Source: Verrucomicrobiota bacterium (GTDB lineage Bacteria; Verrucomicrobiota; Verrucomicrobiia; Verrucomicrobiales; Verrucomicrobiaceae). From it: DNA of 64,000 nucleotides. The stretch covers positions 124,001 through 188,000 of the forward strand of contig JAFLEI010000007.1 of the NCBI GenBank assembly GCA_017301975.1. The letters are read 5' to 3'. Below are positions 18,727 through 35,440 of the stretch, one piece after another. A program made the translations under genes and the position numbers. The notes under the pieces were generated by a model. The model was not told the origin of the DNA, did no database searches, and saw nothing but the letters and a program-made list of their open reading frames with translations. Positions within the stretch are counted from its first letter, which is position 1. Each line of letters starts with the position of its first letter.

Positions 18727-19161
18727 TCAGTCTCGCAGCACTTCGTCCGGCAGTTCGTTGACATCGCTTTTCAGACGGGGAAAATGGGCTGCAAGCGCCT
18801 GCCCGATGTCTTCAATCAGACGCACGAGCGACGCGGTGTAATCCCCCGCCTTGAAGCCTTCGGACAACTGATGGGCGAGTTGGTTCCAGAACGCTTCTTT
18901 GCAGAAGCGATGAATGCCCTCATCGGCCACGATCGCAAACTTGCGCGCCTGGGGGGCCACGAAGATGAGCACGGCATTGCGCTGAGAGGTGTCCTGCATC
19001 TTCAGACGGGCGAAGGTTTTCCATGCCTCTGAAATGGAATCCTCGACCGGTTTGTCCGTCACAAAGACGCGCAGTTCTCCACTGGAGCGCGCTTCCACAG
19101 ATTGGATCGCCCGGGTCACCTGCTCATCCACAATCGTGGCGATGAATTGGTTCGCGTTCAT
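18727..19161 (-). CDS. cytoplasmic TPM-domain protein
   Basis: A 144-residue TPM (YgcG/Psb32-like) domain without a signal peptide or membrane span. The pattern 'SSGELRVFVTDKP', 'RNAVLIFVAPQARKFAIVADEGIH' and 'FKAGDYTASLVRLIEDIG' fits the fold. It is the third gene of a lemA operon: the exported TPM gene ends 2 bases before its start. TPM domains bind metals in some members and have been linked to photosystem repair and weak phosphatase activity; the cellular role in this setting is unknown. Confidence 0.85.
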   Translation of the reverse strand: MNANQFIATIVDEQVTRAIQSVEARSSGELRVFVTDKPVEDSISEAWKTFARLKMQDTSQRNAVLIFVAPQARKFAIVADEGIHRFCKEAFWNQLAHQLSEGFKAGDYTASLVRLIEDIGQALAAHFPRLKSDVNELPDEVLRD

Positions 19162-19163
19162 GG

Positions 19164-19985
19164 TTACCACCCTCCGCTGGCGCCTCCTCCGCCTGTGCTG
19201 CCACCGCCACCGGAGAAAGAAGAACCGCCACCTCCCCCGCCTCCACCGCTCCATCCTCCGCCTCCGCTGGTCCAGCTACCGCTGCTGCTCCAGCTCCTGT
19301 TGAACCAAGGCTGGCCGCCCGTCACGCGGCGCCGGCCCTTCGCATCATAGAGATGGTCGCCCCGGAGTTTATAATATAATTGAAGCCCAACGGTGAACAG
19401 GATGAAAATAAAGAAAAGGATCATCACCCACGCCTGTGGATCGACATGCGACTCGGCCAAGGTCTTGCCGGTGCCTTGGTATTCGCCCTTTGTCGCCTCG
19501 ATCATTGCGGCCACCGCGAAGCTGGCTCCGCCTGTGTAGTCTTTGGCTCGAAAAAACGGCTTCATGCCCTCGATGATGCGAAAGCACTCCGCATCCGTCA
19601 GGCTGGCCTCCAAGCCGTAGCCGGTCTGAATGCGCATCTTGTGATCTTCAATGAAGACGAAGAGCACCGCGCCATTGTCACGATCGGCACGACCCACGCC
19701 CCATTTTTCAAAAGCACGCGTGCAGTAGTCCTCCAGACTCGAATCTGAGAGCATGTGGGAATAAAAGACCACCACCAGCTGGTTCGAGCTTTCACGCTCA
19801 TAGGCCGCCAGGCGTTCGTTCAGGCTGTCTCCCACCTCACGAGTCACGACACCCGTGTAATCATTGAAAAATCGCGCGGGCTTTTCCGGAAGCTGCTCAG
19901 CCGCCAGCACCGCCGTGACGGCAAGCGCCAGCATGAAGGGCACCAGCCGCAGCGAGCCGAAGCAGGATGAGACGCGTGCACTCAC
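19164..19985 (-). CDS. exported membrane TPM-domain protein (YgcG-like)
   Basis: A 273-residue protein with a signal peptide (cleavage near 'VLAAEQ'), a TPM domain at about 35-170 ('RDNGAVLFVFIEDHKMRIQTG'), one membrane helix near 185-205 and a Gly/Ser-rich tail ending in GGGGASGGW. This is the classic YgcG layout. Its start overlaps the lemA stop by 4 bases, so the two are co-translated. LemA with one or two TPM proteins is a conserved gene neighbourhood across bacteria, but the shared function has not been settled. Confidence 0.9.
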   Translation of the reverse strand: MSARVSSCFGSLRLVPFMLALAVTAVLAAEQLPEKPARFFNDYTGVVTREVGDSLNERLAAYERESSNQLVVVFYSHMLSDSSLEDYCTRAFEKWGVGRADRDNGAVLFVFIEDHKMRIQTGYGLEASLTDAECFRIIEGMKPFFRAKDYTGGASFAVAAMIEATKGEYQGTGKTLAESHVDPQAWVMILFFIFILFTVGLQLYYKLRGDHLYDAKGRRRVTGGQPWFNRSWSSSGSWTSGGGGWSGGGGGGGGSSFSGGGGSTGGGGASGGW

Positions 19986-20593
19986 GGCTGTTTGGGGGCA
20001 GCGCTGCCACCAAAGTTAAAATCCACTTTGGGCGGCTCCTCAGCTCCCGGCTTTGCCTGAAAGTAGGGACGCTCCTTGAAGCCGAGTGCCGAGGCATAAA
20101 ACACGGCGGGAATGCTTTTGATCTTTGTGTTGTAGCCCTGCACCACTTCATTGAAGCGCCCGCGCTCGACCGAGATGCGGTTCTCCGTGCCTTCCAGCTG
20201 AGACTGCAGAGCCAGGAAACCCGCATTCGCCTTGAGGTCCGGATAGCGCTCCGCCACCACGAGCAGACGACTCAGCGCGCCGCTGAGGGCGCCCTGGGCT
20301 TTTTCGAACGCTTCAAACTGCGCCGGGTCGGAGGGGGCGTTGTTGAACTGAACCTTGCCAACCGATGCACGGGCCTCGGTGATCTCCGTGAGGGTGCTCT
20401 TCTCAAAATTTGCCGCGCCTTCCACTGTTTTCACCAAATTCGGAATGAGGTCGGCCCGGCGCTGATACACGTTCTGCACCTGCGCCCACTGTGCCTCGAC
20501 AGCTTGGCTGCGCGAAACAAGACCGTTGTAACCGGTCATGACCGTCAGGACGATGACCGCAACAACACCAAGACCAATCAGGAGTGATTTCAT
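19982..20593 (-). CDS. lemA: LemA family protein
   Basis: A 203-residue LemA protein: an N-terminal membrane helix (residues 4-25), then a long helical bundle with the family stretch 'QVQNVYQRRADLIPNLVKTVE' shortened here to its RRADLIPNL core. The ATG at 20593 begins the helix; the longer frame from 20671 adds residues with no family match. It is the first gene of a three-gene operon with two TPM proteins, overlapping the next gene by 4 bases. LemA proteins are thought to act as membrane scaffolds. Confidence 0.92.
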   Translation of the reverse strand: MKSLLIGLGVVAVIVLTVMTGYNGLVSRSQAVEAQWAQVQNVYQRRADLIPNLVKTVEGAANFEKSTLTEITEARASVGKVQFNNAPSDPAQFEAFEKAQGALSGALSRLLVVAERYPDLKANAGFLALQSQLEGTENRISVERGRFNEVVQGYNTKIKSIPAVFYASALGFKERPYFQAKPGAEEPPKVDFNFGGSAAPKQP

Positions 20594-20738
20594 AAGTCCG
20601 ACGATAGGGATCAGTCTATCGAAACGCGATGAATAAATGGCCGCTTTTTTGTAAAGCACCTGAACCTGCATTCACCTGGCAAAATCTTTGATGCCAATAC
20701 GACGCCTTCTGCCACAATCGCACGAACTCATCACATCC

Positions 20739-25380: not shown

Positions 25381-25416
25381 TAAAAAATCCCGCACCGGAA
25401 GCTCCAGTGCGGGATT
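25381..25416 (-). terminator. strong terminator for the Thr-rich gene, minus strand
   Basis: A stem AATCCCGCAC...GTGCGGGATT with one internal mismatch (13 bp in all), followed on the minus strand by a run of six T. It lies 20 bases beyond the stop of the minus-strand gene at 25437. The same hairpin could also serve the Fur gene on the plus strand, but the T-run faces the other way. Confidence 0.85.
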
Positions 25417-25436: not shown

Positions 25437-27011
25437 TTACGGCGATGTGGCAGCTGTGCTGATCGTGTTGGTCACGTTGGCGCTTGTCGAGCCGTTGCCG
25501 CTCGGCGAAGGCGAGCTGCCGCCAGCGAGGTTGCCATCGCCGTTTGTGGTGGTGGTGTTGGTCGTGCTGGTGGTCGTGTTAGTGCCGTCAGCCGTGGTGG
25601 TGGTGTTGCCGTTGGCATCCGTTGAGGTCTGATTCACCGTGGTGGTGGTGGTGCCATCGGGTGCCTTGGTTTCAGTGACAGCGGTTGTGACGACGGTTCC
25701 AGTGGTTGTATCCACGGTCCGAGACTCGCTGGTGGTCACCACCGTACCATCAGACTGCGTGGTGACAGTCACAGTTGAAGTACCGGTGGTGGTGGTCGAA
25801 CTGATGGGGGTGGCACCAGGGGCTGTCGGATCAACGCCCGCCGCAAAGGTCTGGGTGACGACCACGGTGGTGTCACTGCTGGTGGCTGTGCCTTGGGCAA
25901 TCATCTGGCCGGCATTCTCCGGGGTCACATTGCTGGTGGCCGCACCAGCGCCATGTGCATCACCCACGGTCACGGTCACCACGGTCTTCGTGCCATCGGC
26001 GTTGGTGACGATCACGGTGTTGGTCGTAACGATGTTGACCACATTACCTTCTGCCGCGCCCGTGCATTGGAAATCCGGTGGATTGAACTCCGGCTCCCAG
26101 CGCAGCGCCAAGTAGCGCGTCTTGACCGCCTTGGCGGGCTTGGCTTTCAGAGTCCCCGTGCCCCGCGTATCTTCAGCCACGGCGACCGGTGCCACGTTGC
26201 CAAAGTCACTTGGGTCAAAGGCCATGCGACCGCGCCAGTCTTCTTTTTCCGGAAGATTGTCGAAGGCGAACACTTCAAAGCGCACCGGCCGGGGTGAGTG
26301 AACCGAGGCGAACTCGTTCAGAATGCGCAGCTGACCGAAGTCATAGATGATGGTACGATATTTTTCGTCAGACTCGGGGAAGGCAAATTTGTTGTAGGTG
26401 ATGGCGGTATCGAGGCCGTTGGCAGGTTTTGGTGCCGCATACACCACGCGTGCTCCACCCAGACCGTTGATGAGATCGGCAGGCTTGCCACCTTTGCCAT
26501 CCGCAGACTGCTTCACCGCATATCCCTTGTCGGTCGCTGCACCAAAGAACTGCAGGGACCGAATGATGCCGCCCTTGGACAGCGCCAGCTCGAGCTTGAC
26601 GAATTTGGCCTGCATCCCGGCAAACTTAAATTCCACCGTGCGATCCGCCGCGGAAAAGACTTTTTCTTCGAGAACCGCCCAGCCGTTTTTGTCCGCGCTG
26701 GCAGAGAGCGTTGCGCGCCCTTCGATGCCGTCATTCACAAACGAGGAGGACGAGATGAGCACAGGCTTGCCCAAGTTGATGAGAACAAAGCTCTTCCCGG
26801 CGGAAACCGTGGAGGACGCCGTGATGTCGCTCGAAAGAATGGAATCAGCGCGACCAATGCCTGAAGAACTGTCGAGCAAAGCATTGCTGGCAGGACCACT
26901 GATCGTGTTCACCGGCTTTTCCTTGATGATAGGAATTCGCGACCATTTGGCCTGGATGGAACCGGCAGTCAACAGACTGCCGAGAATGACGATGGTAGGG
27001 GCGAGCTTCAT
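25437..27011 (-). CDS. exported protein with Thr-rich C-terminal tail
   Basis: A 524-residue protein with a signal peptide (cleavage near 'GSIQAK'). The first 320 residues or so contain two beta-rich modules: 'SFVLINLGKPVLISSSSFVNDG' and 'TVEFKFAGMQAKFVKLELAL' resemble F5/8-type (discoidin) domains, and 'RTIIYDFGQLRILNEFASVHSPRP' looks like a second. From about residue 330 to the end the protein is almost only Thr, Val, Ser, Asn and Gly. I do not recognise a named family. A surface-displayed binding protein is possible; the Thr-rich tail could be glycosylated. A strong terminator follows it. Confidence 0.75.
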   Translation of the reverse strand: MKLAPTIVILGSLLTAGSIQAKWSRIPIIKEKPVNTISGPASNALLDSSSGIGRADSILSSDITASSTVSAGKSFVLINLGKPVLISSSSFVNDGIEGRATLSASADKNGWAVLEEKVFSAADRTVEFKFAGMQAKFVKLELALSKGGIIRSLQFFGAATDKGYAVKQSADGKGGKPADLINGLGGARVVYAAPKPANGLDTAITYNKFAFPESDEKYRTIIYDFGQLRILNEFASVHSPRPVRFEVFAFDNLPEKEDWRGRMAFDPSDFGNVAPVAVAEDTRGTGTLKAKPAKAVKTRYLALRWEPEFNPPDFQCTGAAEGNVVNIVTTNTVIVTNADGTKTVVTVTVGDAHGAGAATSNVTPENAGQMIAQGTATSSDTTVVVTQTFAAGVDPTAPGATPISSTTTTGTSTVTVTTQSDGTVVTTSESRTVDTTTGTVVTTAVTETKAPDGTTTTTVNQTSTDANGNTTTTADGTNTTTSTTNTTTTNGDGNLAGGSSPSPSGNGSTSANVTNTISTAATSP

Positions 27012-27198: not shown

Positions 27199-27852
27199 AT
27201 GAAATGTCCACGCTGCCAAGCAAGCGTAAGGGCGGAGCAGACCTCCTGCTCTGCCTGCGGATTTTCTGCGACATTGCTGCATAATTACCTTGGAAATCAA
27301 TGGGTTAGACTGGAGAGGATCACCGATGCCGCCCACTGTCTCCGATTGGAGGACGCACGCCGTCTTGAGATCATTCTCGACGATTTTGAACGCACCTATC
27401 CACAAGCTTTTTTTGCGGTTTACTTAGGCACTCTACCCACTAACTTGAACGTTGCGGAGCTGGGCTTCTGGTTGCTCAATCAAGGGGCCTTCAACACTCA
27501 CTCGGTCAGCCGCCGCAATGATTTTGGCATTGTTTTGGTCGTGGATCCCTCGACGAAAACGGCCTGCATCACTCTGGGCTACGCCATCGAGAACTGTTTC
27601 CCCCCCAAAATCATCAACCGCATGATGCAGGCCGTGGGCGGCCATCTGCGCAAGGGTGCCTTTGGCATGGCGATGGAAGCCTGCTGCATCCGCGTCGGCG
27701 AGGTGCTGCGAAAACACGCCCGCCACATGCAATGGCAGCCCGATTCACCTGCCATCGCTGACTCCATTTCAGATATCGGCCTGCAGCCTCTCCGGGGCGG
27801 GCACCGCTCCGCCTCCCGGCCCTTGGCAGAATTCCCCGTTCCCAAAACATGA
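27199..27852 (+). CDS. zinc-ribbon TPM-domain protein
   Basis: A 217-residue protein with an N-terminal zinc ribbon (C3, C6, C17, C20) followed by a TPM domain at about 60-175: 'FFAVYLGTLP', 'RNDFGIVLVVDPSTKTACITLG' and 'GGHLRKGAFGMAMEACCIRVGEVL' fit the fold. There is no signal peptide, so it should be cytoplasmic. Its stop overlaps the next start by 4 bases, which links it tightly to the membrane protein that follows. No ribosome binding site is seen; AT-rich sequence runs right up to the ATG. The TPM match is moderate. Confidence 0.78.
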   Translation: MKCPRCQASVRAEQTSCSACGFSATLLHNYLGNQWVRLERITDAAHCLRLEDARRLEIILDDFERTYPQAFFAVYLGTLPTNLNVAELGFWLLNQGAFNTHSVSRRNDFGIVLVVDPSTKTACITLGYAIENCFPPKIINRMMQAVGGHLRKGAFGMAMEACCIRVGEVLRKHARHMQWQPDSPAIADSISDIGLQPLRGGHRSASRPLAEFPVPKT

Positions 27853-29030
27853 ACAGGCCTTCCTCAAGATCCATGGCAGCCAGAGAGCAGAAGGCCAGAG
27901 GGGCTCCACTGGTGCTGCTTTTTGCACTGTTCTTCGCGGGGGGAGCGTCGGCCGAGGTTGGCCACCCTGCTGATGCCGAGGAACCTGGACTGCCGCTGCC
28001 GCGCTGGAGTGAGCAGGAGCTCAAACGATTTCGCGACAGCCTGCCGGGGGGCGGCAGCCCCGGAGTGCTTCCGCCAAAAAGTGGCGGGTCAGCGTCTGAC
28101 ATCAACGAACTTATCAATACCCCCTTGTCCAGCGGCCCGCGGCTGGATCAATTTTTCAACAAATCCGAACCCACTCTCCCCTCGCGGCTGCAGGCCGAGG
28201 ACATGCGCCTCTTTCTACCGGAGGCGATTCTAGGACTGCCATCGCAAGGCGAGCCCAGCCCGGTGCAGCTGCCCACGCCGCTCGCTTCTCTCAAGGAGGT
28301 GTCTCCGGAGTTCCTCGCCGCCTGCGCGCAGAGTCTGCCCAAGGAGTACCTCATTGATCCAGACCAGCTTGTTCCTGAAATTCAAAATCATGACATGACG
28401 CGCCTTCTTGGCTTTCACGCCCAGGACGCACGCATCAAGCTGTATGTTTTGATGCTCGGCCACGACCAGAAGCTCCCTGGAAGCGCTGACCTGGAGAAAA
28501 TCGCTTCCGGCAGCCTGCTGCAATCCGATGCCTGCCTGGTGGTTTACCCTCTGGGAGAGCCTTGGCGGACCCGCTTGTTTGTCAGCCGGTCCGTCCACAA
28601 CCAAATCTCCACTGATTTCCTCAGTGAGACGATCCAGGCATGCTTGAACGAAGCTCTCCAAACCAGCAATGTGCACGATCAGCTGCGCCGCTACACCATC
28701 CACCTTTCGACACGGCTTTTCTGGGTGCAAAAAGCACTGGTCCCGGACCGCGAGGACCTCACGGTCAAAGGCCATGCGCTGGCGGAATTCAGCTCCGAAT
28801 CGAAAGCGCCAACCGTCGTTTCACCCCTCCCCACCCTCACCTCTACCCTGATTTGGGGATCAGGGAGCCTGCTAGTGCTGGGGCTGGCGGGCATCTCCTG
28901 TCGGCGAATGGTCCGCCACCTGAAGCATCAAAAGCGCCGTCGTGTGTGGATGCTGGCCGAGGCAGAAACGGTCCCCCGGCTAGGCGGAGCTTTTACGGGA
29001 GGCGGCGGAGGAATGATCCGATATGGCTGA
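27849..29030 (+). CDS. membrane protein with divergent TPM-like ectodomain
   Basis: A 393-residue protein: signal peptide ending near 'GGASAEVG', an ectodomain, one membrane helix near 328-347 ('LIWGSGSLLVLGLAGIS'), and a basic cytoplasmic tail ending in GGAFTGGGGGMIRYG. Residues about 185-310 ('DARIKLYVLMLGHDQKLPG', 'SDACLVVYPLGEPWRTRLFVS') resemble a divergent TPM domain, and the Gly-rich end recalls YgcG proteins. The likeness to TPM is by eye and weak. It overlaps the zinc-ribbon TPM gene by 4 bases, so the two products probably work together at the membrane. Confidence 0.72.
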   Translation: MNRPSSRSMAAREQKARGAPLVLLFALFFAGGASAEVGHPADAEEPGLPLPRWSEQELKRFRDSLPGGGSPGVLPPKSGGSASDINELINTPLSSGPRLDQFFNKSEPTLPSRLQAEDMRLFLPEAILGLPSQGEPSPVQLPTPLASLKEVSPEFLAACAQSLPKEYLIDPDQLVPEIQNHDMTRLLGFHAQDARIKLYVLMLGHDQKLPGSADLEKIASGSLLQSDACLVVYPLGEPWRTRLFVSRSVHNQISTDFLSETIQACLNEALQTSNVHDQLRRYTIHLSTRLFWVQKALVPDREDLTVKGHALAEFSSESKAPTVVSPLPTLTSTLIWGSGSLLVLGLAGISCRRMVRHLKHQKRRRVWMLAEAETVPRLGGAFTGGGGGMIRYG

Positions 29031-29139
29031 TTTTCAAGGATTCGGTTCCATTAAGATGTCAGACAGTTTTCCAACTTCAATTTGTCAAAACCAATCCTTG
29101 AATGATAATTAATGAAATTGGCCATAATAATTTAATGTA

Positions 29140-31245
29140 ATGAACCCGGACACGATCCAGTTCCAATGCGGCTTCTGCCGCACAATCCTGACGGTACCTG
29201 CGCAGATGGCGGGCGTCACAGGTCCGTGCCCGAGTTGCGGACAAACCGTCACTTCACCAACCCCTGCACCCGCAGAGTCACCGCTACAGTCTTGGTCTCC
29301 GCCCCCTGCGCCAGCCCAGGCACCTGGTCCCGCCTGGCCTCCAGCACCGCAGTCGTCCATGCTCGGCGAGATGCCAGGGGCTGGCATACCTGCCGCAAAC
29401 TTCAACACGGGGCTGAACCTAAACACCGGTCTCCCACCGAAGCGCGCTCCGGGACAGCCGCCCCTCAGCAGCACGCTCAATGTCCCGGCCGGCCAGCCCC
29501 CGTGGGCGTCACCTCCCGCATCCCCACCGCCGATGTCACCTCTGGCTTCGCCTGAGATGCCAGCCGGGTTTCCCGGGAATGGACTGCCCAATCAATCACG
29601 CTTCATTCCTGGCTCACCAGCTCTGCCAAACATGACACCCATGGGCGGAGGAGGTGCGGGCGGCATGCCGGGCATGCTGCACAACCTGCAAGGCTCATCA
29701 CTTCTCGGCAGAGACGTTTCCCCTGCGCCATCATCCCCCGTCACCCAGCCCCTGCATCCCGTTGGCTCCCCTTCGCTCAGCTTGGGCGGGCATGAAACGG
29801 CCTCAGCGTCACCCATGGCACCGCTTCCAGCAGGAAGGAACATCGCCAGTCTGAGAGCGCCGCGCGGAACGAATTTCATCAGGCTCGCATTCGCAGCCCT
29901 CTTTCTTCTCGGGTTCCTTGGTCTCGTTGGCTACCTGCTGAAAGACTACTTCCCAGGCCTGATTCCCAGCCTGACTGGCCATGATGGAATCGAAGAAAGC
30001 TCCAAGGAAGATCCCGGGATTCCGCAGCTTCCTTCCACTCCCGGCACGGGAACGCCTTCCAAACCCGCCGACGCAATCGCGGATAAGACAGATCCGCTTC
30101 CTTCTTCATCCTCAGAAAGCCGGCCCAAAACGCCCTCCGTCACGGTCGGATTTGATCCTCAGGAGCCAACGCCCCCGAAGCCGGACTCAAGCGCTGCCAA
30201 GGAGCATGTCGTCACGGCACTCGCACCCAGCCCGCCTGCGGCTGCAAACGCAGGCCCCATGGCCGCCCCGCCCGTGCCCCCTGCCCCGCAGGCATCAAGC
30301 ACGCTTCTCGAAGTGCCCGGCAAGACCATGAACGCGGAGTCCGTCGGCGCCCCGGCTGCCTCGCCATCCAGTCTTTCACAACCTCACGCCATCGAGGAAG
30401 ATGACGTGCCGGCCGCGGCCAAGCCTGCTGTCGAGGCGCTCAAAAAATTCCTTCTCGCCAATTCCCTCGAAGAACGGCTCAAATACACCCTCGGAGCCGA
30501 GATGATGAAGCCCCACATGGAGCGCTATTACACGCATGCGCCGGACGGCCCCATCTTGGTGGACCGCATTCAGTTTGTCCGCATGGATCCCAATCCCGAG
30601 CTCGGCTCCGGCAAACACTGCATCCTGAGCCTGGAAAACAAAACCTGGGAGTATTCAGTTCCGGTGATGCTGGAGGAGAAGAATGACGGCTTCAAGGTGG
30701 ACTGGGTCGCCTTTGTGGAATTCAAGGACCGCATGCTGGAGAAATTCTTTCAAACGTACATGACCGGCAAGGCATGCTTCCATGTGGGAATCATCCGCCA
30801 GCATTTCTTCGAAGACGGCGTGCCCAACCTGGAGCGCAAAGATGCGTTCCGCGTCAGCCCTGCCCCGCCCAATTCCTTCCAAGCCTCGGTCTTCCTCGAC
30901 AAAGATTCGCCTCTCGCCCAGGAACTGCGCACCCGCATGCCATGGGAAACCCATGTGTGGGCGGTCGTGGAACTGGAATGGAAAAAGCTCGGCTCACAGC
31001 AGTGGGTTGAGCTCAGCGCTGTCCCGCAGATGCACTGGTACTCCCTGCCCATGGTGCCCAAAGCCAGTCCACCGCCGCCAAAAACCGCTGAGGCAGATGA
31101 ACTGCCGCCGGGCATTTCTAAAAATGGCAGCCGTGGCAAATCCATCACTCAACCCGGCAGCAACATCCCGCCGCCAGGCATTCGCAAATCCGCCCCCGCC
31201 CTGCCCGACACGATCAGACGGCCCACGCTTCCCGCAGGGCGCTGA
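29140..31245 (+). CDS. zinc-ribbon, Pro-rich single-span membrane protein
   Basis: A 701-residue protein of unknown function. It opens with a zinc ribbon (C10, C13, C30, C33), then a Pro/Gly/Ser-rich cytoplasmic stretch to about residue 240, a single membrane helix near 247-267 ('LAFAALFLLGFLGLVGYLL'), a second Pro/Ser-rich stretch to about 425, and a folded C-terminal domain to about 640 ('VEALKKFLLANSLEERLKYTL', 'VWAVVELEWKKLGSQQW'). The tail again is Pro-rich. It starts 109 bases after the TPM-like pair and has the same zinc-ribbon beginning as the TPM gene, so a functional link is possible. It meets the convergent DUF1552 gene 2 bases after its stop. Confidence 0.72.
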   Translation: MNPDTIQFQCGFCRTILTVPAQMAGVTGPCPSCGQTVTSPTPAPAESPLQSWSPPPAPAQAPGPAWPPAPQSSMLGEMPGAGIPAANFNTGLNLNTGLPPKRAPGQPPLSSTLNVPAGQPPWASPPASPPPMSPLASPEMPAGFPGNGLPNQSRFIPGSPALPNMTPMGGGGAGGMPGMLHNLQGSSLLGRDVSPAPSSPVTQPLHPVGSPSLSLGGHETASASPMAPLPAGRNIASLRAPRGTNFIRLAFAALFLLGFLGLVGYLLKDYFPGLIPSLTGHDGIEESSKEDPGIPQLPSTPGTGTPSKPADAIADKTDPLPSSSSESRPKTPSVTVGFDPQEPTPPKPDSSAAKEHVVTALAPSPPAAANAGPMAAPPVPPAPQASSTLLEVPGKTMNAESVGAPAASPSSLSQPHAIEEDDVPAAAKPAVEALKKFLLANSLEERLKYTLGAEMMKPHMERYYTHAPDGPILVDRIQFVRMDPNPELGSGKHCILSLENKTWEYSVPVMLEEKNDGFKVDWVAFVEFKDRMLEKFFQTYMTGKACFHVGIIRQHFFEDGVPNLERKDAFRVSPAPPNSFQASVFLDKDSPLAQELRTRMPWETHVWAVVELEWKKLGSQQWVELSAVPQMHWYSLPMVPKASPPPPKTAEADELPPGISKNGSRGKSITQPGSNIPPPGIRKSAPALPDTIRRPTLPAGR

Positions 31246-31247
31246 AC

Positions 31248-32612
31248 TTAGCTGACTTCCAGCTTGCCGGTGCTGTCTCCCACCTTTTCTGCAGGCACGC
31301 CGAGGCGGTCCAGCAGGGAAAGATAAAGATTTGTCATCGGAGTTTCCCCCGGCAGCACCATGCGCCGGCCCGGTGTCAGCGTACCACCCGCACGCCCTGC
31401 CAGCAGGATGGGCAGATTGTCGTGGTTGTGGCGGTTGCCATCGCCGATGCCACCGCCAAACACGATCATCGAATTGTCCAGCAGCGTGCTGTCGCCTTCC
31501 TTCACCGATTTCATCTTGTCGAGGAAATAGCCGAACTGGCGCAGATAGAACTGGTCGATCTTGGCAATCTTGGCCAGCTTTTGCGGATCGCTCTGGTGGT
31601 GGGACAGGGAATGATGCGCGTCCGGCACCCCCAGCTCTGGGAAGCTGCGATTGCTGCCGTCATGCGCGAGCATGAAGGTCGAGAGGCGCGTCGTGTCAGT
31701 CTGGAACGCCAGCACCATCAGGTCAAACATGGTGCGGATGTGCTCCTCGTAGGAATCCGGAATGCCCTCCGGAATTTTCACATCCGGCATCTGTGAGGAA
31801 AACTTCTCCGCACGCTCGATGCGCAGCTCAATATCCCGCACGGCTGAAAAATATTCGTCGAGCTTGCGGCGGTCTCCCGCATTCACCTTGCCCTGCAGGC
31901 TTTTCGCCTCATCCAGCACCGTGTCGAGAATGCTTTTCTGCATCCGCTTGGCACGTGCGGCTTCCGGCCCCTTGCCCGCAGTGGCACCGAGGCCAAACAT
32001 GCGCTCAAACACCAGACGCGGGTCCATCTCAGGAGCCATCGGCATCGTCTCATTTTTCCATGCCAGATTGAACTGATAGGCGCAGGAATAGCCTGAGTCA
32101 CACTTGCCCGAGCTGCGCTGCCCATCGGTGCTCAGTTCCAGCGAGGGCAGCCGCGTGAGATGGCCGATTTTTTGCGCCGCGATCTGGTCCACCGAGATGC
32201 CCAGATGGATGTCCGCACCCGCCGTTTTTTTCGGCATGCATCCCGTGAGGAAAGTGGCCGTCGCGCGCGCATGGTCACCGCCGCCATTGCCGTGGCTGCG
32301 TGCGAAATCCTGCATCAGCCCCGAAACCACCATGAAATCATTGCGATGCTGCTCGATCTGCTTCAGCGAAGGCGAAAGCTGGTAGTTCACTCCTTCGCCC
32401 GTGGGCATCCATTCGTTCACGTTCACCCCGTTGGGAATGTACATCCATGCGGCACGGATGGGCTTGGCCGCCGGTTTGGATGCAGCAAAGGCACGTGCCC
32501 CGAACGATTCTAGCAAGGGCAGTGAAATCATCGATCCCAGCCCCCGCAGAACCTGGCGGCGGCTGAGCGAATGGGCGGCTAGGGACGTTTCGCGAAACTC
32601 GTTCATATACAT
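31248..32612 (-). CDS. DUF1552 protein
   Basis: A 454-residue protein of the DUF1552 family, with a twin-arginine-like leader ('SRRQVLRGLGSMISLPLLES') that suggests Tat export. The body keeps family segments such as 'WMYIPNGVNVNEWMPTGEG', 'SGLMQDFARSHGNGGGDHARA' and the late 'DNSMIVFGGGIGDGNRHNHDNLPILLAG'. These proteins are found with DUF1587/1588/1592/1595 cytochrome proteins in Planctomycetes and Verrucomicrobia, but no such partner lies beside this one. Two ATGs fit (32612 and 32606); I took the first. Confidence 0.9.
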   Translation of the reverse strand: MYMNEFRETSLAAHSLSRRQVLRGLGSMISLPLLESFGARAFAASKPAAKPIRAAWMYIPNGVNVNEWMPTGEGVNYQLSPSLKQIEQHRNDFMVVSGLMQDFARSHGNGGGDHARATATFLTGCMPKKTAGADIHLGISVDQIAAQKIGHLTRLPSLELSTDGQRSSGKCDSGYSCAYQFNLAWKNETMPMAPEMDPRLVFERMFGLGATAGKGPEAARAKRMQKSILDTVLDEAKSLQGKVNAGDRRKLDEYFSAVRDIELRIERAEKFSSQMPDVKIPEGIPDSYEEHIRTMFDLMVLAFQTDTTRLSTFMLAHDGSNRSFPELGVPDAHHSLSHHQSDPQKLAKIAKIDQFYLRQFGYFLDKMKSVKEGDSTLLDNSMIVFGGGIGDGNRHNHDNLPILLAGRAGGTLTPGRRMVLPGETPMTNLYLSLLDRLGVPAEKVGDSTGKLEVS

Positions 32613-32750
32613 GGTACTTACGCCTGAGGCGGCAGAAACTATCGTGCCACAGTGCCGCGCATTCCAGCCCGAACTGCCACGAAAGTAGTTGAAATTCCGC
32701 GACGACAAGGCCCGATTAAGCTTTCCCCGCCAATTCCCCCCAAAAAAAAC

Positions 32751-33218
32751 ATGAAGCACACCCGCCTCCTACTCCTTGCCGTCACCACCTTCGCGCTCTC
32801 CGGCCTCGCCCAGGACGCCAGCGTCGCCACCATCGAACTCAAGCCGGACTCCAAGAATCCGCTTGGGTATGACAAAACCGAGCTCAGCGTCACCGCAGGT
32901 CAGAAAGTGAAGCTCACGCTGAACAACACCGGAAGCATCGCCCCGCAGCCGCACAACTTTCTTTTGCTGAAGCCCGGCAAACTGGATGCTGTCGGTGCAC
33001 TGGCGAACGCCATGCTGGCAGATCCTCAGGGCATGGCCAAAAGCTACATTCCAGATGCAGCCAAGCCTGACATCGTGGCCAACACGAAGCTCGTCATGCC
33101 GAACCAGAGCGAAACCATCGAGTTCACCGCGCCCGCCGAAGCAGGTGACTATCCCTACATGTGCACCTTCCCCGGCCACTGGATGCTGATGCGCGGTGTG
33201 ATGCACGTCACCAAGTAA
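32751..33218 (+). CDS. azurin-like blue copper protein
   Basis: A 155-residue exported copper protein. The signal peptide ends near 'LSGLAQD'. The type-1 copper ligands are all visible: His69 in 'PQPHNF', then Cys138, His143 and Met147 in the C-terminal loop CTFPGHWMLMRG, which matches azurin. It carries electrons in the periplasm, for example between a cytochrome and a terminal reductase or dehydrogenase. No redox partner gene is adjacent. The ATG directly follows an A-run with no Shine-Dalgarno sequence. The neighbouring 33244 gene may be co-transcribed (25-base gap). Confidence 0.92.
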   Translation: MKHTRLLLLAVTTFALSGLAQDASVATIELKPDSKNPLGYDKTELSVTAGQKVKLTLNNTGSIAPQPHNFLLLKPGKLDAVGALANAMLADPQGMAKSYIPDAAKPDIVANTKLVMPNQSETIEFTAPAEAGDYPYMCTFPGHWMLMRGVMHVTK

Positions 33219-33243: not shown

Positions 33244-33771
33244 ATGAAGTACCTCCTCATCCCCACGTTCATCGCCCTGATCTCACTCACTTCCGTCGTT
33301 CGTGGCGAGGAGGGCAAGCTCGAAGTCAACGGGCTCACCTTCAAGTTCGCCTCACCTTGGGCGGAAATCCAAAGCACCGGCATGTTTCGCGCAGGCACGC
33401 TGGCTGCCAAAGTGGACGGCGCCGAAAAGCCTGTTGAAGCCGTGTTTTACAGCTTCCCAGGCCCCGGCGGCGGTGGCGACACCGAAGCCAACGTCAAACG
33501 CTGGCTGGGGCAGTTTCAGGGCACTCCTGAGTCCAAGCGTGAAGAACTCGCTGCTGGAGACAAAAAGATCACCCTGGTGACAGCCACCGGCACCTACAAC
33601 GACGGCCCTCCCATGGGAGCCAAAACGCCACGTGAGAACTACAGCCTCATCGCAGCGATTGTCCCAGCCGGAGAATCGAACATCTTTGTGAAACTTACCG
33701 GGCCCAAAGATGCCATCGCCAAGCTGGCGGACGATTTCAAAAAAATCGTCCTCAGCCCCTTCGCCAAGTAA
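33244..33771 (+). CDS. exported protein of unknown function
   Basis: A 175-residue protein with a signal peptide (cleavage near 'VVRGEE') and a compact alpha/beta mature part: 'VNGLTFKFASPWAEIQ' and 'NIFVKLTGPKDAIAKLADDFKKIV'. No named family is recognised by eye. Proteins of this shape are common exported hypotheticals in Verrucomicrobia and Planctomycetes. It follows the azurin gene by 25 bases in the same direction, which makes co-transcription likely, and a strong terminator ends the pair. Confidence 0.7.
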   Translation: MKYLLIPTFIALISLTSVVRGEEGKLEVNGLTFKFASPWAEIQSTGMFRAGTLAAKVDGAEKPVEAVFYSFPGPGGGGDTEANVKRWLGQFQGTPESKREELAAGDKKITLVTATGTYNDGPPMGAKTPRENYSLIAAIVPAGESNIFVKLTGPKDAIAKLADDFKKIVLSPFAK

Positions 33772-33807
33772 CCGGGACTTCGGAAACAGATTATTTCTCA
33801 CACCAAG

Positions 33808-33836
33808 AGCGGACGGGACATCCCGTCCGCTTTTTT
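33808..33836 (+). terminator. rho-independent terminator
   Basis: Perfect 11-bp stem AGCGGACGGGA / TCCCGTCCGCT with a 2-base loop, running into a T-tract (TTTTTT). It ends the azurin/33244 unit and isolates the amt gene that follows. Confidence 0.9.
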
Positions 33837-33923
33837 GTGCCCGTTTCCCTCGTGAAACACCTGCTGCCATCGGCCTATTTCACAGCAGCGGAGACCGCTA
33901 CCCAGCGGAAACTATGCCAGAGT

Positions 33924-33939
33924 TGGCACGCGCAATGCT
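33924..33939 (+). promoter_or_regulatory. sigma-54-type promoter upstream of first amt
   Basis: TGGCACG-N4-ATGCT with GG at 33925-33926 and GC at 33937-33938, the exact spacing of a -24/-12 promoter. One base of the -12 element differs from TTGC. A start near 33950 would leave a leader of about 27 bases before the ATG at 33977, which also supports that start codon. Confidence 0.65.
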
Positions 33940-33976
33940 GAGCACTCGGATCGGAGTTCAATCCAATCACCGACTT

Positions 33977-35440
33977 ATGCTCAAACACACACCCACACGA
34001 ATCTGGAGCGGTCTTGCCATCACGGCAATGGCTGCCGTCACCTCACTCGCATTCAGCCTCGGCGAAGTCCGTGCTCAGGATGCTGCACCACCGGCTCCGG
34101 CCCCTGCCGCAGCAGCACCGGCTCCCGCTCCGGCACCGGCCCCTGCCGCAGCAGCACCGGCTGCAGCCGCGGAGGCCGCCCCAGCTGCTCCAGCCGGCCC
34201 ATCGGTGGAACTCTTCACCACCAACAACCTTTGGATGATGATCGCCGCCGCCCTGGTGTTTATCATGCATCTTGGTTTCGCCTGTGTTGAGTCCGGCCTG
34301 ACCCAGTCCAAGAACACGGTGAACATCCTGTTCAAGAACACGTTGATCCCCTGCATCGGCCTCCTCACCTACGCGCTGTGCGGCTTCAATCTCATGTATC
34401 CTGGATTCGCAGACGGGGACGCCCAGTTCTGGTTTAAGTTTTCCGGCTTCGGCATCGTCCCCGGCGAAGGCGGCCTCACCTCCGCCTACAACGTGGGCTA
34501 CACCTATTGGACGGACTTCCTCTTCCAGGCCATGTTCGCCGCGACTGCCGCCACCATCGTCTCCGGCGCTGTGGCCGAGCGTGTGAAACTCAGCACCTTC
34601 ATGGTGTTCTCCGTTCTTTTCGTGGCGATTGCCTACCCGATCGCAGGCAGCTGGAAGTGGGGCAATGGCTGGTTGAACCGCCTCGAAACTCCTTTCTATG
34701 ACTTCGCAGGCTCCACCCTCGTCCACTCCGTGGGCGGCTGGGGTGCGCTCGCTGGCATTCTGCTCCTCGGGCCACGTCTCGGCAAATACCTCCCTGGTGG
34801 CAAAACCAAGCCTATCCTTGGTCACAGCATGCCCCTGGCCACCATCGGTGTGTTCCTTCTCTGGCTCGGCTGGTTCGGGTTCAACGGCGGTTCTGTCCTT
34901 TCGGCGGATCCAGCCCTCGTTTCCCTGACCTTGGTGACCACCTGCCTCGCCGCTGCTGCTGGCGGCGTTTCCGCCGCCCTTGCCTCGGTCATCTTGCTCA
35001 AGAAGCCTGACCTCTCCATGGCCCTCAACGGCATCCTCGCCGGCCTCGTCGGCATCACCGCTGGCGCAGACCAGATGGCCGCCGCCAGCTCCATCTACAT
35101 CGGCGCGATCGCCGGTGTGCTTGTGGTGGTCTCGGTTCTGTTCTTTGACAAGATCAAGATCGACGATCCAGTGGGCGCCGTGTCCGTGCACCTTGTCTGC
35201 GGCATCTGGGGCACTCTGGCTGTCGGCATCTTCGGCGCCAAGGCTGGCATGCCTCAGCTGATGAGCCAGCTCAAAGGTGTCGCCGCCTACGGCGTGTTCA
35301 CCTTCGTGTTCGCCTTCGTCCTGCTCCTGATCCTGAAGATCATCATGGGACTTCGCGTCAGCCCTGAAGAAGAAACCGAAGGTCTCGACATTGGGGAACA
35401 CGGCAACGTGGCCTACCCGGACTTCCAGGCCAATCACTAA
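33977..35440 (+). CDS. amt: ammonium transporter, first copy
   Basis: A 487-residue Amt/MEP/Rh transporter. After a signal-like segment (ending 'GEVRAQD') comes an Ala/Pro-rich linker of about 45 residues, then the eleven-helix core. The twin-His pore residues lie in 'TLVHSVGGWGAL' and 'VSVHLVCGIWGTL', and 'GFACVESGLTQSKN' is the family's first-helix signature. It conducts ammonium or ammonia. A near-consensus sigma-54 promoter lies 38 bases before the start, and a terminator follows, so it is transcribed alone. No glnK gene is adjacent, which is unusual for amtB. Confidence 0.93.
   Translation: MLKHTPTRIWSGLAITAMAAVTSLAFSLGEVRAQDAAPPAPAPAAAAPAPAPAPAPAAAAPAAAAEAAPAAPAGPSVELFTTNNLWMMIAAALVFIMHLGFACVESGLTQSKNTVNILFKNTLIPCIGLLTYALCGFNLMYPGFADGDAQFWFKFSGFGIVPGEGGLTSAYNVGYTYWTDFLFQAMFAATAATIVSGAVAERVKLSTFMVFSVLFVAIAYPIAGSWKWGNGWLNRLETPFYDFAGSTLVHSVGGWGALAGILLLGPRLGKYLPGGKTKPILGHSMPLATIGVFLLWLGWFGFNGGSVLSADPALVSLTLVTTCLAAAAGGVSAALASVILLKKPDLSMALNGILAGLVGITAGADQMAAASSIYIGAIAGVLVVVSVLFFDKIKIDDPVGAVSVHLVCGIWGTLAVGIFGAKAGMPQLMSQLKGVAAYGVFTFVFAFVLLLILKIIMGLRVSPEEETEGLDIGEHGNVAYPDFQANH
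34099..34162 (+). repeat. 25-bp direct repeat in the amt linker
   Basis: Two perfect 25-base copies at 34099-34123 and 34138-34162, encoding part of the Ala/Pro linker. The arrangement could lengthen or shorten the linker by slippage. Confidence 0.8.

Follow-up and report, generated by a model that had tools for sequence, protein, structure and literature searches.

The question raised by this locus is whether a zinc-ribbon TPM protein and the membrane protein encoded next to it form a system with one half on each side of the inner membrane. The locus occupies positions 27199-31245 of a 64,000-nucleotide stretch of DNA from a Verrucomicrobiota bacterium of the family Verrucomicrobiaceae (GenBank assembly GCA_017301975.1, contig JAFLEI010000007.1, positions 124,001 to 188,000 of the forward strand; hereafter the window, whose numbering is used throughout). 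An earlier note, made from the sequence alone, had proposed a small inside/outside system of three genes. The part that stood is that genes 1 and 2 form a conserved two-gene unit, with one TPM domain predicted inside and one TPM-fold ectodomain predicted outside, and this architecture is well supported; the part that fell is the three-gene system. The pair has the following features:

27199..27852, plus strand: gene 1, a zinc-ribbon TPM protein of 217 amino acids (aa), with the ribbon at aa 2-22 and the TPM domain at aa 41-165; predicted cytoplasmic
27849..27852, plus strand: ATGA stop/start overlap in the sequence, coupling genes 1 and 2
27849..29030, plus strand: gene 2, the membrane partner, 393 aa, predicted to comprise a signal peptide, a TPM-fold ectodomain, a transmembrane (TM) segment and a cytoplasmic Gly-rich tail
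28305..28739, plus strand: TPM-fold ectodomain of gene 2, aa 153-297, placed by the AlphaFold2 (AF2) block and VIA-align
28845..28901, plus strand: TM segment of gene 2, aa 333-351, by hydropathy, followed by a basic stretch
28947..29027, plus strand: predicted cytoplasmic tail of gene 2, W-x-L-x-E-x-E-x-x-PRLGGxFxGGGG, defined by invariant or nearly invariant columns

Gene 2 was matched in 56 of the 68 genomes of the window's family. With the window's own genome and weaker zinc-ribbon-TPM paralogues left out, and with G064 (a split match) and G016 (a match with an internal stop) kept, gene 1 lies no more than 4 kb from gene 2 in 53 of 55 family genomes. In the two others (G008 and G051), gene 2 sits at the start of a contig, and the linkage is therefore 53/53 among family genomes with a visible upstream flank. 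The gene 2 profile was matched by 163 of the 239 genomes of the order, and all 20 loci fetched from its other families carry a zinc-ribbon TPM gene directly upstream of gene 2. In a sample of the phylum, 37/288 genomes matched gene 2, 36 of them within the order and 1 elsewhere in the class. The comparison of gene order that the earlier note had suggested thus linked genes 1 and 2 across the order, but placed gene 3 away from the pair in most relatives. All loci with organism names come from Verrucomicrobia-type metagenome-assembled genomes (MAGs) or strains, Brevifollis gellanilyticus and Prosthecobacter MAGs among them. Two MAG titles reading 'Akkermansia muciniphila' (L131 and L158) look doubtful, as the sequences are close to Prosthecobacter-type loci; separately, the zinc-ribbon TPM match on G163:C12 contains a stop.

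The protein encoded by gene 1 carries a TPM domain (PF04536) at 37.1 bits, above the Pfam cut-off of 22.1 (E 3.7e-9), and the same Pfam family was matched by 17/17 aligned members of the gene 1 family at E 1 or better. Residues 2-22 give a sub-threshold zinc-ribbon match in Pfam, and the ribbon cysteines are invariant in the family alignment. Neither a signal peptide nor a TM segment was found in gene 1 by hydropathy, in agreement with the cytoplasmic zinc-ribbon TPM protein first described, the location being a prediction. The ATGA overlap described with it is present at 27849-27852, and an NTGA overlap joins the two genes in 21 of the 40 relatives examined.

The identity of gene 2 is less apparent from Pfam. 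Its N terminus has a hydrophobic, signal-peptide-like segment at residues 19-37 (hydropathy), and its C-terminal end reads RLGGAFTGGGGGMIRYG. The window protein gave no Pfam match above chance, TPM was not among the Pfam families matched by the 33 aligned gene 2 members scanned, none of which reached the PF04536 cut-off, and two fused relatives (described below) gave borderline TPM matches (E about 5e-4) in their gene 2 halves, below the cut-off. An AF2 model built from the 33-sequence alignment was confident over residues 141-297, mostly with a predicted local distance difference test score (pLDDT) above 90, and its fold, alpha1-beta1-alpha2-beta2-beta3-alpha-alpha, agrees with TPM structures. 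With this model as query, the best PDB rows in Foldseek were 3pvh (E 1.6e-4), 3ptj, 7tbr, 2kw7, 5anp (two chains), 9h70 (LMTP1), 2lt2 and 2kpt, and the first clearly unrelated row came only after nine top rows, at E 0.47. VIA-align gave Z scores of 10.8 to 8.1 for the Foldseek group and mycobacterial supercomplex chains, a few further chains of the same kinds down to 7.6, and RecJ chains at 6.4 and below. TPM is named in the title of the PDB entry 7tbr, and 2kw7, 2kpt and 5anp are presumably TPM proteins as well. The available parts of the sources name TLP18.3 and BA42 as TPM proteins (PMC13089150 for TLP18.3).

A second line of evidence came from comparing the gene 2 family profile with five Pfam-TPM-positive membrane proteins from other genomes, the two alignments having no members in common. 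The hhalign comparison gave a probability of 97 and E 9.4e-11 over 202 columns, and the match runs from the ectodomain through the TM segment to the tail. Because of the AF2 fold and this profile match, gene 2 is, as far as a predicted structure and sequence comparison can tell, a diverged membrane TPM. The suggestion that its ectodomain and Gly-rich end resemble a divergent TPM was thus borne out, as was the proposed structural comparison, in which both Foldseek and VIA-align found a TPM fold.

The tail of gene 2 has many invariant columns; its motif was matched as a pattern in 35/40 relatives, and a tail of this kind also occurs on Pfam-TPM membrane proteins. As the C-terminal flank of the TM segment carries the more positive net charge in 39 of 40 relatives, the tail should lie on the cytoplasmic side, the same side as the gene 1 protein.

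Several variant arrangements bear on which parts of the pair are constant. In the related genus g12, seven fetched loci carry genes 1 and 2 as a single uninterrupted open reading frame (ORF) of 604-671 aa (for L221, 624 aa counted from the zinc ribbon), in which the zinc-ribbon TPM is followed by the gene 2 domain, the TM segment and the tail; an eighth g12 locus (L233) is cut by the contig end. All seven fusions have a hydrophobic, signal-peptide-like stretch between the halves, preceded by basic residues, as the inside/outside layout requires, although it is only modestly hydrophobic (hydropathy 1.22-1.94). Another family of the class includes two genomes (L214 and L224) in which the partner that follows the zinc-ribbon TPM is only 121 aa and about 138 aa long and consists of a hydrophobic start, a TM segment and a tail, with no TPM domain. 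In G548, G568 and G495, the gene that follows the zinc-ribbon TPM gives a Pfam TPM match of its own (29, 35 and 142 bits). Because of the fusions, the minimal partners and the Pfam-positive partners, the constant core, to judge from these sequences, is the zinc ribbon-TPM together with the TM-tail, and the ectodomain is the variable part. The RLGG cytoplasmic tail is counted in this core because the L214 and L224 partners keep only the TM segment and the tail.

Other forms were also seen. Three loci of another family of the order (L236, L238 and L241) have a second paralogous operon adjoining a histidinol-dehydrogenase-type gene (Pfam-checked in L238), in which a zinc-ribbon TPM and a membrane partner whose tail is of the RLxAP/RLGAP type are encoded together with a small lipoprotein-like protein. 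In L229, L237, L239, L240 and L242, zinc-ribbon TPM proteins of about 190-220 aa stand alone, with no membrane partner. Stand-alone membrane TPM proteins with FPDVxVxxRLGAPxGGG-type tails occur in L212, L213, L215 and L216, where no zinc-ribbon TPM match was found within the fetched stretch.

The window also holds the separate operon of lemA and two TPM genes that the earlier note had pointed out:

18727..20671, minus strand: lemA / membrane TPM / soluble TPM operon (Pfam LemA 189 bits, TPM 108 and 54 bits)

The count of at least three TPM proteins in this genome can accordingly be raised to at least four TPM-fold proteins when gene 2 is included; a further, truncated zinc-ribbon-TPM paralogue match lies at a contig edge (G000:C18). 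The best reading of the pair is that it is a divergent form of the membrane-TPM and soluble-TPM pair known from lemA operons. As in those operons, a TM TPM with a signal peptide and a Gly-rich tail is encoded beside a soluble TPM. Unlike in those operons, the soluble partner has a zinc ribbon and its gene comes first, the membrane TPM has diverged below Pfam detection and carries an RLGG tail, and no LemA adjoins the pair, whose flanking genes encode an F5/8 type C protein and gene 3.

Other known systems share parts of this layout, as far as the available text of the cited sources describes them. The ydjFGHL-type operons of B. subtilis (PMC11237479) likewise combine a membrane TPM with zinc-ribbon proteins, but there different proteins carry the ribbon and the TPM, and their partners are PspA and band-7 proteins, whereas in the pair the ribbon and a second TPM form one protein; no PspA gene was noticed beside the pair, for which no dedicated search was made. 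Msmeg_4692 and CcoZ (PMC8267372) are also membrane proteins with the TPM fold, and the gene 2 model matches the mycobacterial supercomplex chains 6hwh_O and 8hcr_J at Z about 8 in VIA-align; these are, however, single proteins linked to oxidase genes, with no cytoplasmic TPM partner described in the portions of that source available. TLP18.3/Psb32, of photosystem II repair (PMC13089150), places a TPM domain outside the membrane and provides the best Foldseek matches (3pvh and 3ptj), but its client is photosynthetic, and no paired cytoplasmic TPM is described in the available part of that paper.

Two neighbouring genes were considered as further members of the system:

29140..31245, plus strand: gene 3, 701 aa, with a zinc ribbon, a Pro-rich linker, a TM segment and a C-terminal domain; an independent family
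25437..27011, minus strand: divergent gene for a secreted protein with two F5/8 type C (CBM32-like) domains, by fold match of the model

Gene 3 does begin with a zinc ribbon and span the membrane once, as the earlier note had it: the N-terminal CxxC...CxxC ribbon is invariant in 12 aligned sequences and a single TM segment lies at 249-267 (hydropathy). Its C-terminal domain is conserved; no PDB relative of this domain was found by profile, and Pfam gave weak ribbon matches only. A three-gene system that includes gene 3 (29140-31245), comparable to B. subtilis YdjG beside YdjH, would be in keeping with its position downstream of the pair, which recurs within 5.5 kb of gene 2 on one contig in 15 of the 51 genomes that have both, with five more cases at contig edges (G042, G025, G023 and G050 from partial matches at contig ends, G037 from two contigs). 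These five and G052, which could not be judged, were counted as having gene 3 elsewhere, and weak matches (E about 1e-12 or poorer) were left out. Such a system is nevertheless highly improbable. The gene 3 family is found in 63/68 family genomes (E 0.001) and lies elsewhere in most relatives, 1.4 and 2.6 Mb from the pair in two single-contig genomes, and the unlinked gene 3 loci fetched lack genes 1 and 2 in 11/11 cases. The gap before gene 3 is 109 bp, and promoter-like matches in it are no more than expected by chance. Across the region, the promoter scan gave 2 promoter-like sites against 1.4 in shuffled sequences, and terminator-like sites were in excess (12 vs 5.7); the only strong one lies downstream of the divergent gene (25386-25416, minus strand). 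Gene 3 is thus an independent family that stands beside the pair only in a subclade; as a general rule, the three-gene system is refuted by the unlinked gene 3 loci, which leave a subclade association at most. Gene 3 is itself adjoined by a gene for a DUF1552 (HXXSHH) protein (31248-32759, minus strand), and an ammonium transporter gene (33710-35440, plus strand) and a second transporter-like ORF, similar by eye and extending to 37102, lie further on.

The divergent gene, which the earlier note had not counted in, is linked to the pair more often than gene 3 in the family, yet it is not required. The model of its product matches F5/8 type C / CBM32 domains at a low mean pLDDT of 62, and the C-terminal half of the protein is Thr/Ser-rich. 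The gene adjoins the pair divergently in 42/53 family genomes with both and in 17/20 fetched family loci, as would be expected if the pair were a system dedicated to the secretion, anchoring or regulation of this surface protein. We consider this very unlikely: the gene is more widely distributed than the pair (61/68 family genomes, 47/47 of high quality), occurs without it in 7 family genomes and apart from it in 11, and a hidden Markov model search found no relative beside the pair in 20/20 order-level loci. These unlinked genomes and order-level loci indicate that a dedicated F5/8 type C partner system is not general.

What the pair does can be approached by analogy. We tentatively read it as a two-sided assembly, repair or quality-control factor for an envelope or inner-membrane complex, chaperone-like and not a dedicated phosphatase, a reading to which we give somewhat less than an even chance and which is favoured because of the TPM precedents and the Hsp33 and HtrA neighbours. 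The two-part module would bracket the inner membrane, with the zinc-ribbon TPM inside and the TPM-fold ectodomain outside; the former may dock on the RLGG tail of gene 2, since nothing but the tail is retained of the partner in its minimal version, and the two TPM domains could act from both faces to hold or sense a membrane protein complex. In the accessible parts of the sources, TLP18.3 accompanies photosystem II (PMC13089150), Msmeg_4692 the mycobacterial respiratory supercomplex and CcoZ the Campylobacter cbb3 oxidase (PMC8267372), while analyses of PspA propose a chaperone-like TPM role and doubt the phosphatase label (PMC11237479, PMC12419801). An Hsp33-type gene precedes the pair in g12 (Pfam on L217, C-terminal part only, with similar starts in L218, L219 and L222), and HtrA-like trypsin-PDZ proteases follow it in 6 of the 20 order loci by clustering (Pfam-confirmed in L199, with a further one in L230). 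Several observations weigh against this reading. The quality-control neighbours occur in separate lineages only, the Hsp33 assignment was Pfam-checked in a single locus, and neither kind of neighbour was seen in the family loci with listed genes. Gene 2 is absent from 4 of 47 high-quality family genomes, and the pair is therefore not essential everywhere. In addition, a direct profile comparison between the gene 2 and gene 1 families gave no match, and enzymatic activities have been reported for some TPM proteins.

These activities (phosphatase or ATPase, reported for TLP18.3 and Bizionia TPM proteins by the titles of cited papers) and the Pfam family name, TPM_phosphatase, would suit an enzyme pair in which the zinc-ribbon TPM is a metal-dependent phosphatase or ATPase and the membrane TPM a pseudo-enzyme anchor; a GY-x-x-E stretch is kept in gene 1 and absent from gene 2. 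Phosphatase activity as the real function of TPM domains is argued against or doubted in the available text of the PspA analyses (PMC11237479, PMC12419801), and an enzyme pair appears quite unlikely. Transmembrane signalling is also unlikely, if a little less so. Here the ectodomain would sense the state of the envelope and the tail would hold or release the zinc-ribbon TPM, whose ribbon would act on RNA, DNA or protein, and the inside/outside layout, the single TM segment, the conserved cytoplasmic tail and the invariant ribbon cysteines are all consistent with it. In the seven fused loci, however, the cytoplasmic and membrane halves are one covalent chain unless the protein is cleaved, which makes a freely released regulator less likely, and among the genes listed for ten loci no regulator was noticed immediately next to the pair. 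A defence function was rejected in the absence of a match to the PADLOC anti-phage defence models, which gave 0 families for the four proteins at E 0.1.

Already known are the TPM domain itself and, from the lemA operon, paired membrane and soluble TPMs. In the literature searched, where the search for Verrucomicrobia and Akkermansia was weak, no account was found of the zinc-ribbon form and its divergence, of the RLGG tail, or of the fused and TM-tail-only forms. It is possible, though we hold this with considerable reserve, that TPM proteins commonly act as inside-outside pairs, in which an inner-membrane ecto-TPM would use a short RLGG-type tail to recruit a cytoplasmic TPM and so form a transmembrane bracket round client complexes; a single machine would then underlie the zinc-ribbon pair, the fusions, the TM-tail-only version and the lemA operon. 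TPM proteins are widespread, and whether they serve as phosphatases or as assembly factors is disputed. A conserved two-sided pair, together with a natural fusion that fixes its stoichiometry and a partner reduced to TM segment and tail, offers a direct way to test TPM action across the membrane, including whether docking takes place at the tail and which complex fails without the pair.

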